Shown piece after piece: positions 2,402-17,496 of a stretch of 17,496 nucleotides of DNA. The stretch is from Endomicrobiia bacterium. Its GTDB lineage: Bacteria > Elusimicrobiota > Endomicrobiia > Endomicrobiales > Endomicrobiaceae. Position 1 is the first letter of the stretch. Every line of letters begins with the position of its first letter. Made by a program: the position numbers and the translations under genes. The stretch is taken from NCBI GenBank assembly GCA_009782015.1, contig WQUP01000007.1, positions 1 through 17,496 of the forward strand, written 5' to 3'. The notes under the pieces are model-generated. The model was not told the DNA's origin. It worked only from the letters and a program-made list of their open reading frames with translations, and made no database searches.

Positions 2402-2441
2402 ACGGGGTATGGCCTTTTATCGTCATTGTGAGGATAGCGTT

Positions 2442-3986
2442 TTGATTAAAAAGATATTTATTTCAGCCGTTTTGGTTTTTGTTTCAGTTTCGCTTTCATG
2501 CGCAAGGGATATATGCCTTGCCGGAAGATTTATACCAAAAGACGGAAAAACTCTTCTTTTTGCCGGACAAACCAATTCCGACAGCGACGCGTATGTGAAA
2601 GCTGCAAAGAGCGTTCCCGCAGGATTTATGATATATACCTCCCTTGCACAGCTCGACGGTTTGGATGAAAACGCCGATTTCGGCACGGGCGAAACATCAG
2701 GCAAACACATACTTTCAAATTATCCCGGCGCGGCGCTTCAGATAGGGCTTTATCTTGTGAACTCCCTTGACGCCGTTATAGACGGCTCTCTTGACGCAAA
2801 TATAGAAAAACTCGGCAAATGGATAAAAGCCGCTAAAGTTCCGGTTTTCTTAAGGATAGGCTACGAATTTGATTTTCCGGAAAACGGATACGATCCTGAC
2901 AAATACGTAAAAGCCTACAGGCATATAGCCGATAAACTTGACGATATGAAAGTAACAAATGCCGCGTACGTCTGGCACTCGTACGCGTCGCTTAATCCGA
3001 GAGGAATAGAGGCATGGTATCCGGGAGACGAATACGTCGATTGGTGCGCGATATCGTACTTTGCAAATCCTCAGTGGATACCCATGGTCAAATTCGCCCA
3101 AAGGCATTCAAAGCCCCTTATGATTGCCGAATGCGCGCCGATGCTCGGACTTGACCTGAAAAAAGAAAATAAAGTTGCGTGGCATAACAAGCTTTTCAGG
3201 TTTATCGAATCTAACAACGTCAAAGCTTTATGCTGCATAAACTCCGACTGGGACGCTACGGCAATGTTTGGGGATAAGGGCTGGGGAAACAGCAGGATAG
3301 ATGACACTGCGGAGATAACGGAACTGTGGATAAAAAATACTTCTGACAAAAGATTTGTTCAGCTGAAAGACATGCCGGCAGCCGTAGGCTTTAATCCTGT
3401 CGGCAGCGTTTTGATAATTTTCTGTCATCCCGATAACAAAAACAGCAGTAATGCCGCAATTCTCGGGCGCATAAAAAGCGTTCTTGAAAAAAATGAGATA
3501 AAGTATGCGGTCCGCGACCTTTACTCTATGAAGTTTAATCCCGCTCTCTCCAAAAGCGAACTGGCCGGTTTGAAAAATAAAAAATATTCCAAAGAAGTTT
3601 TGCGCGAGCAAAAACTCATCAAAGATGCCGGCGCCGTAATTTTTATATATCCGATTTGGTGGGGAACAACTCCGGCAATGCTCAAAGGCTATATAGACAG
3701 AGTTTTCTCGATAAGTTTTGCCGCAGATTCCAAAGACAGCGGCGGAATTCACTCGATAAAATACAAAGACGCTTATGTGTTCAATACCATGGGCATGTCT
3801 AAAGACGCTTTTGAAGAGCGCAATTTCGGGCAGCTTTACGAGAAGACTTTTGACGACGGAGCGCTCTCCGTAGCGGGATTTAACGTCGTAAAGCATAAAT
3901 ATTTTTGGTCTCTTCCGACCGATGACGATACCCTGATGAAAAGCTATCTTGATGAGGTCGAAAAGACTGTCGGCGCGATAGAATAA
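2442..3986 (+). CDS. Exported fusion: GH26-like glycosidase + NQO1/KefF-type flavodoxin-fold domain
   Basis: I chose the TTG at 2442 because AGGA lies 7 bases before it and translation then opens with a classic signal peptide (MIKKIFISAVLVF...LSCA). The ATG at 2409 would add 11 polar residues and lies in repeat-like DNA. The protein is 514 residues. Residues about 25-300 resemble GH26 beta-mannanases (COG4124). FLRIGYEF carries the likely acid/base Glu142, and KPLMIAE carries the likely nucleophile Glu230. DWCAISYF and WHSYA also fit a glycosidase TIM barrel. Residues about 322-514 resemble Flavodoxin_2 NAD(P)H quinone reductases, starting VLIIFCHPDNKNSSN and containing YPIWWGTTPAMLKGYIDRVF. 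The reading frame is continuous between the halves. An export signal on a domain normally found in the cytoplasm is odd. The substrate is unknown. It abuts the addA start with no gap. Confidence 0.75.
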   Translation: MIKKIFISAVLVFVSVSLSCARDICLAGRFIPKDGKTLLFAGQTNSDSDAYVKAAKSVPAGFMIYTSLAQLDGLDENADFGTGETSGKHILSNYPGAALQIGLYLVNSLDAVIDGSLDANIEKLGKWIKAAKVPVFLRIGYEFDFPENGYDPDKYVKAYRHIADKLDDMKVTNAAYVWHSYASLNPRGIEAWYPGDEYVDWCAISYFANPQWIPMVKFAQRHSKPLMIAECAPMLGLDLKKENKVAWHNKLFRFIESNNVKALCCINSDWDATAMFGDKGWGNSRIDDTAEITELWIKNTSDKRFVQLKDMPAAVGFNPVGSVLIIFCHPDNKNSSNAAILGRIKSVLEKNEIKYAVRDLYSMKFNPALSKSELAGLKNKKYSKEVLREQKLIKDAGAVIFIYPIWWGTTPAMLKGYIDRVFSISFAADSKDSGGIHSIKYKDAYVFNTMGMSKDAFEERNFGQLYEKTFDDGALSVAGFNVVKHKYFWSLPTDDDTLMKSYLDEVEKTVGAIE

Positions 3987-13691: not shown

Positions 13692-14351
13692 ATGAAAAAA
13701 ATAACGCCGTTTGTGTTGTTTCTTTTTTGTGTTTTTGCTTCCGGCGCCGTTGCCGAAAACACCAGGAAAGTGATTTCATCCGGCTACTCTGAAGGCAATC
13801 CTAAAAAAGAAGTCGCTTATTACGGCAACAGCGGCAAAGAAGTCGCCAGAGAATACTATCATATCGACGGCAGAGTGATGGGCGTAAAAGGCAGCATACC
13901 GGATGGCGAGATACTCGAATATTATCCCGACGGCGCTGTAAAAAGCAAAGCGCTCTACCGGTCAAATCTGATGGTTGAAGAGACCGAATACTGCGATGAC
14001 GGCGCAAAAAAATCGCGCACTCTCAACGAATGGTCAGGAAGAAATCTTGTAAAGACCGGCAACATCATATACTATCCGGACGGTTCGGTTCAGCGGGAAA
14101 TAACTATGGACGGCGACGGAATCGGGACAAGCAGGGTTTACTACAAAACCGGAGAGCTTTTTGAAGAGTCGTCTATGGAAAACGCCTGCAGAAGCGGTCC
14201 GGCAACGCAGTACTACAAAAGCGGAAAAAAGAAGCTTACGGGTTTTATGAAAGACGACGCGCTTGACGGCCCGGCAAAAGAGTACGGCGAAAACGGAAAC
14301 GTGATTGAAAAATCGATATATAAAAACGGCAAAAAGACGGAAAAATTATAA
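13692..14351 (+). CDS. Secreted MORN_2 (YwqK-type) repeat protein
   Basis: A 219-residue protein with a clear signal peptide (cleavage likely after GAVA, residue 21). It consists mainly of MORN-variant repeats of the type YYPDGxxxxE...G, starting at about residues 72 (GEILEYYPDG), 123 (GNIIYYPDG), 144 (GTSRVYYKTG), 169 (GPATQYYKSG) and 193 (GPAKEYGENG). Such repeats form extended beta-meanders. YwqK in Bacillus is annotated as an antitoxin-like protein, but this exported copy has no toxin neighbour, so I do not infer that role. It is headed by its own promoter and lies upstream of two outer-membrane-type genes, which suggests an envelope function. An octamer hairpin follows the stop. Confidence 0.82.
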   Translation: MKKITPFVLFLFCVFASGAVAENTRKVISSGYSEGNPKKEVAYYGNSGKEVAREYYHIDGRVMGVKGSIPDGEILEYYPDGAVKSKALYRSNLMVEETEYCDDGAKKSRTLNEWSGRNLVKTGNIIYYPDGSVQREITMDGDGIGTSRVYYKTGELFEESSMENACRSGPATQYYKSGKKKLTGFMKDDALDGPAKEYGENGNVIEKSIYKNGKKTEKL

Positions 14352-14466: not shown

Positions 14467-15804
14467 ATGAAAAAGCTTTTTTTCGCGGCATTATTTATTT
14501 TTCTTCTTGCAGGCGCTGCATCCGCCGAATATTTTTATATGAAATCGGGTGAAGTCGTAGAAGGGAAAATAATTTCCGAAACCATGGATTCGGTGACGGT
14601 ATCCGTTGGCGGAACAAAAACCAAAAGAAAGCTGATGTTTAAAGACATCGACCAAATGTCATCTAAGCCAAGGCCGGCGTCGCAGGCTGCAATAACTTCG
14701 CAGGCTGGCTACGATGAAAAAACAGCCAAATCACAGTTTACAAGCCAAGCCAAGCAGGATATGCCGGATTCAAAAACTTATATCGATGAAAATAAGTCCG
14801 GAATAATAGTTTACAATGTGAAAGAAACGGAAAATGTTGTCGTAAAAGACATGAAAACGCCTTCCGTATCTCCGGCGCAGCCGAACGGTAACGACGATTT
14901 TGACGCCGCGGCCTATCTTCTCGGCGGGGGCCAGCCTTCGGATTTAAAACCCAAAGTCGCGCAGCCTGCTCCGGCAGCCGTGCAGCCGAGCGATAACGGC
15001 GACTTTGACGCTGCGGCTTATCTCCTAAGCGGCGGTAAGCCTTCGGATATCAAACCCGGAGTTTCTGCGCCACAGCCGGCAAAGCCTGCGGAAGCTGTAC
15101 GGCCTCAGGAGCGGCAGATTCCCGTTAAGACGGATAATAACGACGATTTCTCTTATGATCCGAATAAGTATCTCATCAATGACAACCCGCAGGTAAAAAA
15201 GTCTGCGCCGGTTTCTCAGCCGGCTGTCGAAAAAAACGGCATTCAATCTGCATCATCAAAACCTCCGAGCGAATTATTTTTAGCGGCGTCTTTAGATCTC
15301 AAGGGAGCGCATAAATTTACCGGCTCCGTTACAAACGAAGGAGTCAGACAAAGCGCGGATATTTCCGAAAGTTCCGATTACGGCGTCAGCTTATCCGCGG
15401 AAAGATACGGTTACTTGAGCAGGTTTGCCGCTTTGGGCATAGGATTAGGCTATCAATTCGGCAGGTGTTTGGAGACAAGTCCGGGACGTTTCGGATTTCT
15501 TCCTGTTTACGCGGCTTTCAAAATGAGGGTGCTAAGCGGAGAAGATTATCATCTGTACGGCGTGGCGCATCTGGGCTACGGTTTTATCATTCCAAATACA
15601 CGATACAGGCAGGGAACAGACAGCGCGGAAGGCGGAATATATTATGCCGCCGGCGCCGGAATAGCATATCACAGGTTCGTGTTTCAGGCTCTCTATTCAG
15701 CGGATTATGCCCATTTGACTCTGGCAGATTCGACTTCGTACAAAGATATCAATAAAAGCGTTCAGTATTCAAAGCTCGGACTTTACTTCGGGTATCTTAT
15801 TTGA
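14467..15804 (+). CDS. Outer-membrane beta-barrel protein with LSm-like N-domain and DFDAAxYLL repeats
   Basis: A 445-residue protein; the ATG at 14467 follows AAAAGGGG, whereas the frame from 14305 would translate the hairpin. The signal peptide ends at about residue 20 (GAASA before EYF). Residues 21-65 (MKSGEVVEGKIISETMDSVTV...KDIDQM) look like the small LSm/SH3-like domain common in exported proteins. Residues 66-265 are low complexity, rich in Pro, Ala, Gln and Ser, with three motif copies: NDDFDAAAYLL (142-152), GDFDAAAYLL (178-187) and the divergent DDFSYDPNKYLI (226-237). The first two are also followed by PSDLKP/PSDIKP. Residues about 268-445 alternate in beta-barrel fashion and end KLGLYFGYLI, as outer-membrane barrels do. 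The function is unknown. The motif recurs in the next gene. Confidence 0.72.
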   Translation: MKKLFFAALFIFLLAGAASAEYFYMKSGEVVEGKIISETMDSVTVSVGGTKTKRKLMFKDIDQMSSKPRPASQAAITSQAGYDEKTAKSQFTSQAKQDMPDSKTYIDENKSGIIVYNVKETENVVVKDMKTPSVSPAQPNGNDDFDAAAYLLGGGQPSDLKPKVAQPAPAAVQPSDNGDFDAAAYLLSGGKPSDIKPGVSAPQPAKPAEAVRPQERQIPVKTDNNDDFSYDPNKYLINDNPQVKKSAPVSQPAVEKNGIQSASSKPPSELFLAASLDLKGAHKFTGSVTNEGVRQSADISESSDYGVSLSAERYGYLSRFAALGIGLGYQFGRCLETSPGRFGFLPVYAAFKMRVLSGEDYHLYGVAHLGYGFIIPNTRYRQGTDSAEGGIYYAAGAGIAYHRFVFQALYSADYAHLTLADSTSYKDINKSVQYSKLGLYFGYLI

Positions 15805-15828
15805 TGCGTATGCATTTACGCGTAATAC

Positions 15829-15870
15829 AAAACGCCCCTAGGAATCATTTCCCGCGGGGCGTTTGTATTT
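15829..15870 (+). terminator. Probable intrinsic terminator
   Basis: AAACGCCCC (15830-15838) pairs with GGGGCGTTT (15856-15864) around a 17-nt loop, followed by GTATTT. The T-run is short, but the position between the barrel gene and the next promoter fits. A smaller hairpin, GCGTA/TACGC, lies at about 15806-15821. Confidence 0.65.
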
Positions 15871-15939
15871 AAAAACTTCAAACAGGCGAAAAGTTTGAAA
15901 AGAGTTTGAAAAAAACATAATGCAACTTTTTGCCCGTTG

Positions 15940-15948
15940 TGCTATAGT
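15940..15948 (+). promoter_or_regulatory. Predicted extended -10 promoter for the PorV-like gene
   Basis: TGC-TATAGT forms an extended -10 element; the -35 region is poor. Transcription would start near 15955, giving a leader of about 30 bases. The preceding stretch has a direct repeat of GTTTGAAAA at about 15889-15909 that could be a regulator site. Confidence 0.5.
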
Positions 15949-15984
15949 ATGCGGGCAGTCAATAATTCCCGGCAAGAAGATAAT

Positions 15985-17496
15985 ATGATCAAAACAACCG
16001 CAACGGCTTTCGCAATCATTGCATTTGCCGCCACATTTTGTTTTTCCTCCGTAAGAGACGGGCATGTCTTATACGCCAATCCTTCCGTAAAAGCCGCCGG
16101 AATGCGCGGCGCTTTCAGCGCAAATACAACCGACGACGCGTTCGGAACCTTTGTAAATCCCGCATATTCTCCTTCCGGCCCCATGGCCGGCGCAATGTTT
16201 TCTACTGCATTTAAGGACGGATACAATCTTTCCGAATATGCTTACGGCGCGCTTTCTTTCATATATACGGATTTGTTTTTCGGCATAAACGCCGGCATCG
16301 GCGCTTTGAGCAGCGTTGAGGCAAATTTCGGACAAGACCAAGAGTGCGCGGCAAATATTAACCTTTCCAGAAAGTTTGGTTTTTTAGGCATCGGTGCAAA
16401 CATTAAGTATGTCGGCTCGCAGTTTTACAGAAATACCGATTCGGCTCAGTTTACCGGAGATGCCGGCATTCTTGCCGATTTCGGAATTTTTAGTTTAGGT
16501 GTGGCCGGATATAACCTTGTCGGAGATTTTTATGATTCCAACGGCGAGAGAATACGTCCCTACGCCAGCGCCGGCGCGTCTTTTAATTTAAAACTGTTCC
16601 GCGATATCGGCGTAATAATTTCAGCAGAGGGATATCAGCCGGATATAGAAAAGTGCTACTTCAGCCCCAGGGCCGGCATTCAGTTAAGTTACTTATATTT
16701 TGCCCTGCGCGCAGGATACGAGTACGATGAAAGGGCTGAAAAGAAAGATAAGTTTTCTGCCGGAGCCGGGATAGATTTTAAGAACATACAGCTTGAATAT
16801 GCATACGTTCCGGACGAAGCCTCAAAAGTCGATCAGCATAGAGCGTCGCTGTCTTACAGGTTTAAGCAGTTCAGGGTGAAGGACAAACAGTTTAACCGGC
16901 AAATAGCGCGTGAAAAAAAGCAGGCCAAAGCCGACAGTTTGCTTGCCAAGGTTAAATCAAAATACGATGTTCAGCCGCGGCAGGAAGTTAAAAAACAGCT
17001 TGTTGCGGAAAAATCGGAGATACTGCCGCTTCAGGCGGTCAGCTACAATAAGGATGAGTATGAGTTTACGGCAATTTTGTGTCCGGTTGACGCGTCAACC
17101 ATGCCGGATTCCGATGCGACGACGTACTATGCGTCCACTCCGAAAGGCGACGATTTCGACGCCGCAAAATATCTTCTTGCGCTTGGAAATTCAAAATCTT
17201 CAGCGAATTTGTCAGCCGCATCGGCTGAAGCCAAACAGGGTGTGTATCCGCCGACTCCGGCAGAAGATAACGATTACGATCCGGCAAAAGAGCTGCTCAA
17301 AAGCAGTCTGACATCCAAACTGCCGCAGTCAAAAGAGAGCGTTAATGTGGACATGAAGAGCAAAAATACCGCTTTGTCAAAAAAAGCGGATCGGAAATCT
17401 AAAAAAAGTTCTTCGGTTAACGACGATTTTGACGCCGCAAAATATATTCTTGACAACCCGGGCGCAAGTAAAGCAGAAATAAAGCAAACCTATGAG
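15985..17496 (+). CDS. PorV/PorQ-like outer-membrane barrel with DFDAAKYLL tail, 3' partial
   Basis: The frame is open from the ATG at 15985 to the window edge (504 codons, no stop). A signal peptide covers about residues 1-22. Residues 27-295 resemble PorV/PorQ-type barrels: GMRGAFSANTTDDAFGTFVNPAYS near the start (written in part), followed by repeating strands such as FLGIGANIKYVG, GILADFGIFSLGVAGYNLVG and AGYEYDERAEKKDKFSAGAGIDF. From about 296 the protein turns basic and low complexity, with three motif copies: GDDFDAAKYLL (388-398), NDYDPAKELL (429-438) and NDDFDAAKYIL (479-489). PorV in Bacteroidota is a type IX secretion shuttle, but no other type IX gene is here, and this family is widespread with unknown roles. 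The tail is the unusual part. Confidence 0.78.
   Translation, partial: MIKTTATAFAIIAFAATFCFSSVRDGHVLYANPSVKAAGMRGAFSANTTDDAFGTFVNPAYSPSGPMAGAMFSTAFKDGYNLSEYAYGALSFIYTDLFFGINAGIGALSSVEANFGQDQECAANINLSRKFGFLGIGANIKYVGSQFYRNTDSAQFTGDAGILADFGIFSLGVAGYNLVGDFYDSNGERIRPYASAGASFNLKLFRDIGVIISAEGYQPDIEKCYFSPRAGIQLSYLYFALRAGYEYDERAEKKDKFSAGAGIDFKNIQLEYAYVPDEASKVDQHRASLSYRFKQFRVKDKQFNRQIAREKKQAKADSLLAKVKSKYDVQPRQEVKKQLVAEKSEILPLQAVSYNKDEYEFTAILCPVDASTMPDSDATTYYASTPKGDDFDAAKYLLALGNSKSSANLSAASAEAKQGVYPPTPAEDNDYDPAKELLKSSLTSKLPQSKESVNVDMKSKNTALSKKADRKSKKSSSVNDDFDAAKYILDNPGASKAEIKQTYE

Follow-up and report, generated by a model that had tools for sequence, protein, structure and literature searches.

Few periplasmic short linear motifs have, to our knowledge, been described, and most of those known occur once, on a single type of protein. 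The TonB box, a single N-terminal periplasmic peptide on TonB-dependent receptors with a plug domain, docks a periplasmic partner. The C-terminal peptide of FtsZ, on a cytoplasmic disordered tail, binds several partners, and cohesins and dockerins are folded extracellular domains. In Acinetobacter, a periplasmic protein, TpgA, associates with the membrane domain of the autotransporter adhesin AtaA, which is the kind of association proposed here, while the excerpted text of that report does not mention a short motif repeated across several different barrels (PMC13082670). Here, we analyzed a window of 17,496 nucleotides, the whole of contig WQUP01000007.1 of an Endomicrobiia bacterium (family Endomicrobiaceae), in which a motif with an eight-residue core recurs six times in two putative outer-membrane proteins, named here A and B.

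Like the TonB box, this motif would be a short periplasmic peptide on outer-membrane barrels that docks a partner, but it occurs one to six times per protein and, across three types of barrel, either precedes or follows the barrel; A and B were rejected as TonB-box receptors, having no Pfam match at E ≤ 0.1 and consisting of a small barrel and a PorV-like barrel. It resembles the FtsZ peptide, in resemblance only, by the succession of a hydrophobic residue, Asp, Pro or Ala, an aromatic residue and Leu on a disordered tail, whereas its carriers begin with signal-peptide-like sequences. As with cohesin and dockerin, repeated modules would gather several proteins on one scaffold, but the module here is an eight-residue peptide, putatively periplasmic. 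We propose, with a probability of roughly 60%, that it is a short linear motif of the periplasm, multivalent by repetition, through which selected outer-membrane proteins dock onto a partner they share.

Results

Protein A (445 residues; 14467..15801, this and all other window features being on the + strand unless marked) has a signal-peptide-like start, judged by eye, a small N-terminal domain, a disordered linker with three motif copies and an OmpA/OmpW-like beta-barrel. Protein B (15985..17496; 504 residues read, truncated by the contig end) consists of a PorV-like barrel followed by a helix and a disordered tail with another three copies. Translation shows all six copies where a sequence-only reading of this DNA had placed them: in A, FDAAAYLL at residues 145-152 (copy A1, 14899..14922), FDAAAYLL at 180-187 (copy A2, 15004..15027) and YDPNKYLI at 230-237 (copy A3, the weakest, 15154..15177); in B, FDAAKYLL at 391-398 (copy B1, 17155..17178), YDPAKELL at 431-438 (copy B2, 17275..17298) and FDAAKYIL at 482-489 (copy B3, 17428..17451). 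The consensus is about [DEN]-x-[FY]-D-[AP]-A-x-[YF]-L-L, and copies A3 and B2 are the furthest from the [ND]DFDAAxYLL form first noticed. The copies were scored with a matrix of 71 unique copies of relatives, from which the proteins of the window and the homologues nearest to them (P0002 and P0016) had been excluded. Copies A1, A2 and A3 scored 35.1, 31.4 and 9.9 bits and copies B1, B2 and B3 24.0, 22.3 and 29.2 bits; the top site in the 11 other proteins of the window scored 3.3 bits. Shuffling the B tail never reached the score of its lowest copy (0/5000), and 6 of 5000 shuffles of the A linker matched its lowest copy, A3. The scores of the other five copies lie far above those of shuffled sequence.

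The N-terminal domain of A spans about residues 21-121 (14527..14829; profile search) and its barrel residues 269-444 (15271..15798; structure prediction and fold comparison). In the model of A (14 sequences; mean predicted local distance difference test score, pLDDT, of 58), the barrel is the best-predicted part and the linker lies mostly below pLDDT 50. OmpA, OprG and OmpW are among the nearest solved folds of this barrel, at 11-14% identity, and residues 269-444 are predicted to form a small barrel of the OmpA/OmpW type, by fold only. The model of B (4 sequences, pLDDT 50) has 14 strands and a helix at 300-327. Its barrel matched a PorV structure first in the PDB (8gl6_F; E 4.1e-7, TMt 0.51), with a low-confidence model as query and many other porins close behind, and another, 6h3i_F, at rank 17. 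Against the NCBIfam family PorV_fam (NF033709) B scores 37.8 bits (best stretch 238-293), below the cut-off of 90 that would place it in the PorV/PorQ family. B may resemble PorV of the type IX secretion system in the structure of its barrel but differs in the motif-bearing tail and in this low family score. Short helices are predicted, at low confidence, at 148-151 and 182-187 in A, within copies A1 and A2, and at 393-401, 433-441 and 484-490 at the three copies of B. These predictions agree with the earlier suggestion of a short amphipathic helix at five of the six copies; none is predicted at copy A3.

The motif was also found on other proteins. Two genomes, both of genus g11, encode a short protein beside A that begins with an export-signal-like sequence: the one in G014 has 170 residues, a secretion-signal-like start and three copies, and the one in G023 has 251 residues, a lipobox-like start and four copies. 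No barrel was recognised in either (short length; no NCBIfam match). Both align to the tail of the B homologue P0017 (BLASTP E 6e-16 and 4e-15), values inflated because filters and composition correction were switched off in this comparison of nine sequences; other carriers match each other around the motif too, for example at 3e-7. The tail of B appears to occur without its barrel in G014 and G023, as if the anchor had been swapped.

A first profile (profile A1), built from 49 copies of the A family, the B family and these two stand-alone relatives, was run on 60 genomes and gave nine sites in new carriers at E ≤ 0.0129, along with one ankyrin look-alike; about 0.8 would be expected by chance at that cut (60 genomes × 0.0129), and none of the 49 peptides is present in the new carriers. 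Part of the weak matches was read individually, and no FtsZ was among the proteins read. Two PorV-like barrels of G014 (388 and 346 residues) have C-terminal copies, a 1876-residue protein of the same genome has a copy right behind the last barrel strand (by eye), and autotransporters of about 1200 residues in G001, G002 and G003 have one between the barrel and the OmpA domain, as has that of G004 at E 0.025. By Pfam, the G003 autotransporter has Autotransporter and OmpA domains, and its barrel-to-OmpA part is matched by the carriers of G001, G002 and G004 at 68-76% identity; the 1876-residue carrier has AIDA, AC_1, Pertactin, ART-PolyVal and OmpA matches and none to the Autotransporter-barrel model. 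Judged from these sequences, the motif is shared by barrels of three types (small OmpA-like, PorV-like and autotransporter) and by two proteins with no recognised barrel. The view of the sequence-only reading that it marks two different outer-membrane proteins holds for the difference in barrel type and was too narrow in number, given the autotransporters, the other PorV-like barrels and the stand-alone proteins. Such recurrence across protein families in disordered regions, the disorder being modelled for A and B only, is that of a short linear motif.

Several copies per protein and short predicted helices could also mean that the motifs are helices pairing with each other, so that the barrels cluster with no separate receptor, and no receptor was found. 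However, eight residues make a short core for a stable bundle, and three carriers of G014, namely PorV3, the autotransporter and A, have a single copy; we consider self-association unlikely, if worth bearing in mind, and favor docking onto a common partner.

Two further observations were made in G014. An AIDA-repeat protein (L129:5223-10850, -) holds the motif copy, ART-PolyVal and OmpA domains in the region past its barrel, and L127 and L128 are two alike gene groups around a motif-tailed PorV-like barrel, three of the L127 neighbors having no Pfam match.

Both termini of outer-membrane barrels are periplasmic by general topology, and the OmpA domain binds peptidoglycan. The motif lies in front of the barrel of A, C-terminal after the PorV-like barrels and between barrel and OmpA domain in the autotransporters. 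Because both ends of such barrels face the periplasm, the arms carrying the motif should face it too, and every identified carrier would present the motif where the periplasm is expected. Arms extending outside the cell, with the motif acting on a protist or insect host, would suit the description of Endomicrobia as host-associated in the excerpted text of PMC11257099, but this runs against the topology of the termini and the position before the OmpA domain, making it extremely improbable.

Relatives of A and B were searched for copies with a regular expression. At least two were found in 11 of the 13 A homologues P0002-P0014 and at least three in all three B homologues (P0016-P0018); by the expression, the latter and the B proteins of G001, G004 and G018 have two to four, and an additional copy in P0016, YDPAKDLL, is missed by it. 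All 10 A homologues from neighborhood loci have one to six copies each. The homologue sets overlap, because P0006 is identical in sequence to the A of G004 (G004A) and P0018 falls within the B of G001 (G001B). Relatives lacking the motif at conserved positions would have spoken against it, and most keep copies (A 11/13, B 3/3). The last copy of A usually begins with Tyr. In the alignment of the 13 A homologues, identity to the A of the window is 0.69 at copy 1, 0.26 at copy 2 and 0.52 at copy 3, against 0.12 in the other linker columns, 0.52 in the N-terminal domain and 0.55 in the barrel; including the window sequence in the count raises these figures slightly. The motif thus appears conserved in most relatives against drifting linkers.

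In the A of G002, G003 and G031, adjacent copies share near-identical spacers, so that arrays can grow by local duplication. The earlier statement that simple duplication does not explain the motif has to be softened for these spacers and for the likeness of the B tail to the stand-alone proteins; it stands for the presence of the motif in different barrel families. Motif-bearing spacers of this kind would also be left by neutral expansion, in which slippage lengthens low-complexity linkers and produces the motif incidentally. Copies 1 and 3 are kept, however, while the linkers diverge, and the motif recurs in other barrel families; neutral expansion, already disfavored, is very improbable.

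The distribution of the motif was examined with a second profile (profile A2) of 64 peptides, to which the copies of the new carriers had been added. At E ≤ 0.0112, a cut chosen after viewing the list and worse than which some true copies score, it gave 61 matches, in 11 of 76 family genomes and 3 of 14 genera. Among 294 genomes of the phylum, there were 62 matches at this cut, with about 3 expected by chance; 61 lie in 11 Endomicrobium-group genomes, and the extra one is a Sel1-like repeat protein. Many of the matched sites had served to train the profile, so the result shows a restricted distribution at the sensitivity of this search and is no independent discovery. The reversed profile gave 14 matches at E ≤ 1 in the 76 family genomes, the best at 0.0395. 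Carried out in this way, with profiles and a reversed control, the search of the own and related genomes proposed by the sequence-only reading favors the motif. Literature searches at the level of titles and abstracts turned up no report of it.

Several look-alikes were set aside. The next matches beyond the cut are MATE-like (E 0.0176, G035) and an ankyrin look-alike (E 0.0179, G023); a MATE transporter loop, a TonB-receptor barrel strand, a GntR-like regulator, and phosphoglycerate-mutase-like, GalT-like and VWA-like frames were dismissed by eye. The match in G023 (L134:7973-11344, -) consists of ankyrin repeats (Pfam) and that in G107 (L170) of a Sel1-like repeat, by eye. Four of the five matches outside A and B in the own genome were read, and none has the full motif in frame; a match on C97, from a different search, was judged by eye to be a homoserine-acetyltransferase-like frame. 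The motif looks like single helices of ankyrin and Sel1-like repeats, a possible hint, as a lead only, at mimicry of one such helix from a helical-repeat protein.

Autotransporter-OmpA matches are many in G000, G001, G014 and other family genomes. At E ≤ 1e-20, autotransporter barrel or OmpA matches occur in 21 of 37 genomes, with 33 in G001 and 28 in G014, counts in which the barrel and OmpA parts may be separate and some proteins may count twice. Among autotransporters, only the G001-G004 orthologues and one G014 protein have the motif at the cut. A decayed single YDPS-[LI]-Y piece was seen in the linker before the OmpA domain of autotransporter paralogues in G001 (L131:12376-16185, +) and G004 (L205), and these pieces were left out of the copy count.

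With numerous autotransporter paralogues and few bearing the motif, it is no general assembly signal. A signal for assembly or quality control, recognized in the periplasm by a chaperone, a protease or a factor of barrel assembly, might offset missing BamBCD, since the excerpted text of PMC11257099 reports that all Endomicrobiaceae lack BamBCD, FadL and LptD. This absence is family-wide, though, whereas the motif occurs in 11 of the 76 family genomes at the cut, and the stand-alone carriers retain it with no recognised barrel. We therefore hold an assembly signal to be quite unlikely and return to the docking motif and its partner.

Candidates for the partner were sought around and within A. 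The N-terminal domain of A is found at E ≤ 0.001 in 11 of the 76 family genomes, exactly the 11 motif genomes, with a profile built from the protein homologues and some of those genomes; the shared distribution is weak evidence for this domain as a partner. The first half of the domain has weaker relatives in a 262-residue protein of G014 and in two NCBIfam families, PTPDL and LA_0442 N-terminal, both below cut-off. Upstream of A lies a MORN_2-repeat protein (13692..14351; Pfam, profile search), found at E ≤ 1e-12 in 7 of the 76 genomes, all within the 11 motif genomes, and not found in 4 of these. A metallo-beta-lactamase-fold protein, which stands near A in several genomes (for example L088:3-929, -, and L096:10318-11202, +), occurs in 27 of the 76, of which 10 belong to the 11 motif genomes and 17 do not.

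A narrower form of the docking proposal would make the N-terminal domain of A the receptor, A both carrying and binding the motif. Its matching distribution and its conservation at 0.52 speak for this. Against it, domain and motif lie in one protein of one clade, which deprives their match of independence; P0011 and P0012 retain the domain but have no motif, and the first half of the domain is not confined to A. We regard this form as rather unlikely within the broader proposal of a common partner.

The genome is fragmentary (290 contigs, 1.58 Mb, 71% complete) and, as the window is an entire contig, B was cut off by the assembly. Further copies had been anticipated past the edge: P0016, P0017 and P0018 each have one more about 30 residues past B3, a position beyond the contig end here, but the sequence of B itself ends with the contig. 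Its missing end was not on the candidate contig C141 of G000, of which 4,000 of 4,583 bases were examined. Seven named relatives of A are from Endomicrobium or Endomicrobia genomes, with termite-derived species names in three. Elsewhere on the contig, a gene at 2409-3986 (+) encodes a protein whose start looks by eye like a signal peptide and which makes an odd combination, a GH26-like glycosidase part (117-219) joined with a part resembling flavodoxin (334-519).

Discussion

Under the proposed explanation, one to six motifs would sit on flexible arms of selected outer-membrane proteins, each probably folding into a short helix on binding, and a common periplasmic partner, for which the N-terminal domain of A is one candidate, would bind them. 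Repetition of the motif would give avidity, and the outcome may be the clustering or tethering of the OmpA-like barrel, the PorV-like barrel and the autotransporter.

Several observations weigh against this explanation. All evidence comes from one clade, which leaves the co-occurrence of the A N-terminal domain with the motif little weight as independent evidence, and sequences related to the first half of this domain occur elsewhere. No partner was identified among the two neighbors of A tested, and neither the MORN_2 nor the metallo-beta-lactamase-fold protein has a distribution that fits a general partner. Profile searches found no carrier beyond A and B at the cut in the own genome, 71% complete. 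P0011 and P0012 have no recognisable copies by the regular expression while keeping N-terminal domain and barrel. Copy A2 is poorly kept in position (0.26), copy A3 is low-scoring (9.9 bits), and the helices at the motifs are of low confidence (block pLDDT means about 36-54), with none at A3.

A repeated motif recurring on three barrel types implies a receptor. We see about even odds that it represents a periplasmic docking code, shared by barrels, a lipoprotein-like and a secreted protein and apparently gained more than once independently, with one receptor and a multivalent outer-membrane assembly. The motif peptide is a direct handle for finding that receptor, and it opens the question of how selected outer-membrane proteins are organized in a lineage that, in the excerpted text of PMC11257099, is reported to lack several of the usual assembly proteins.

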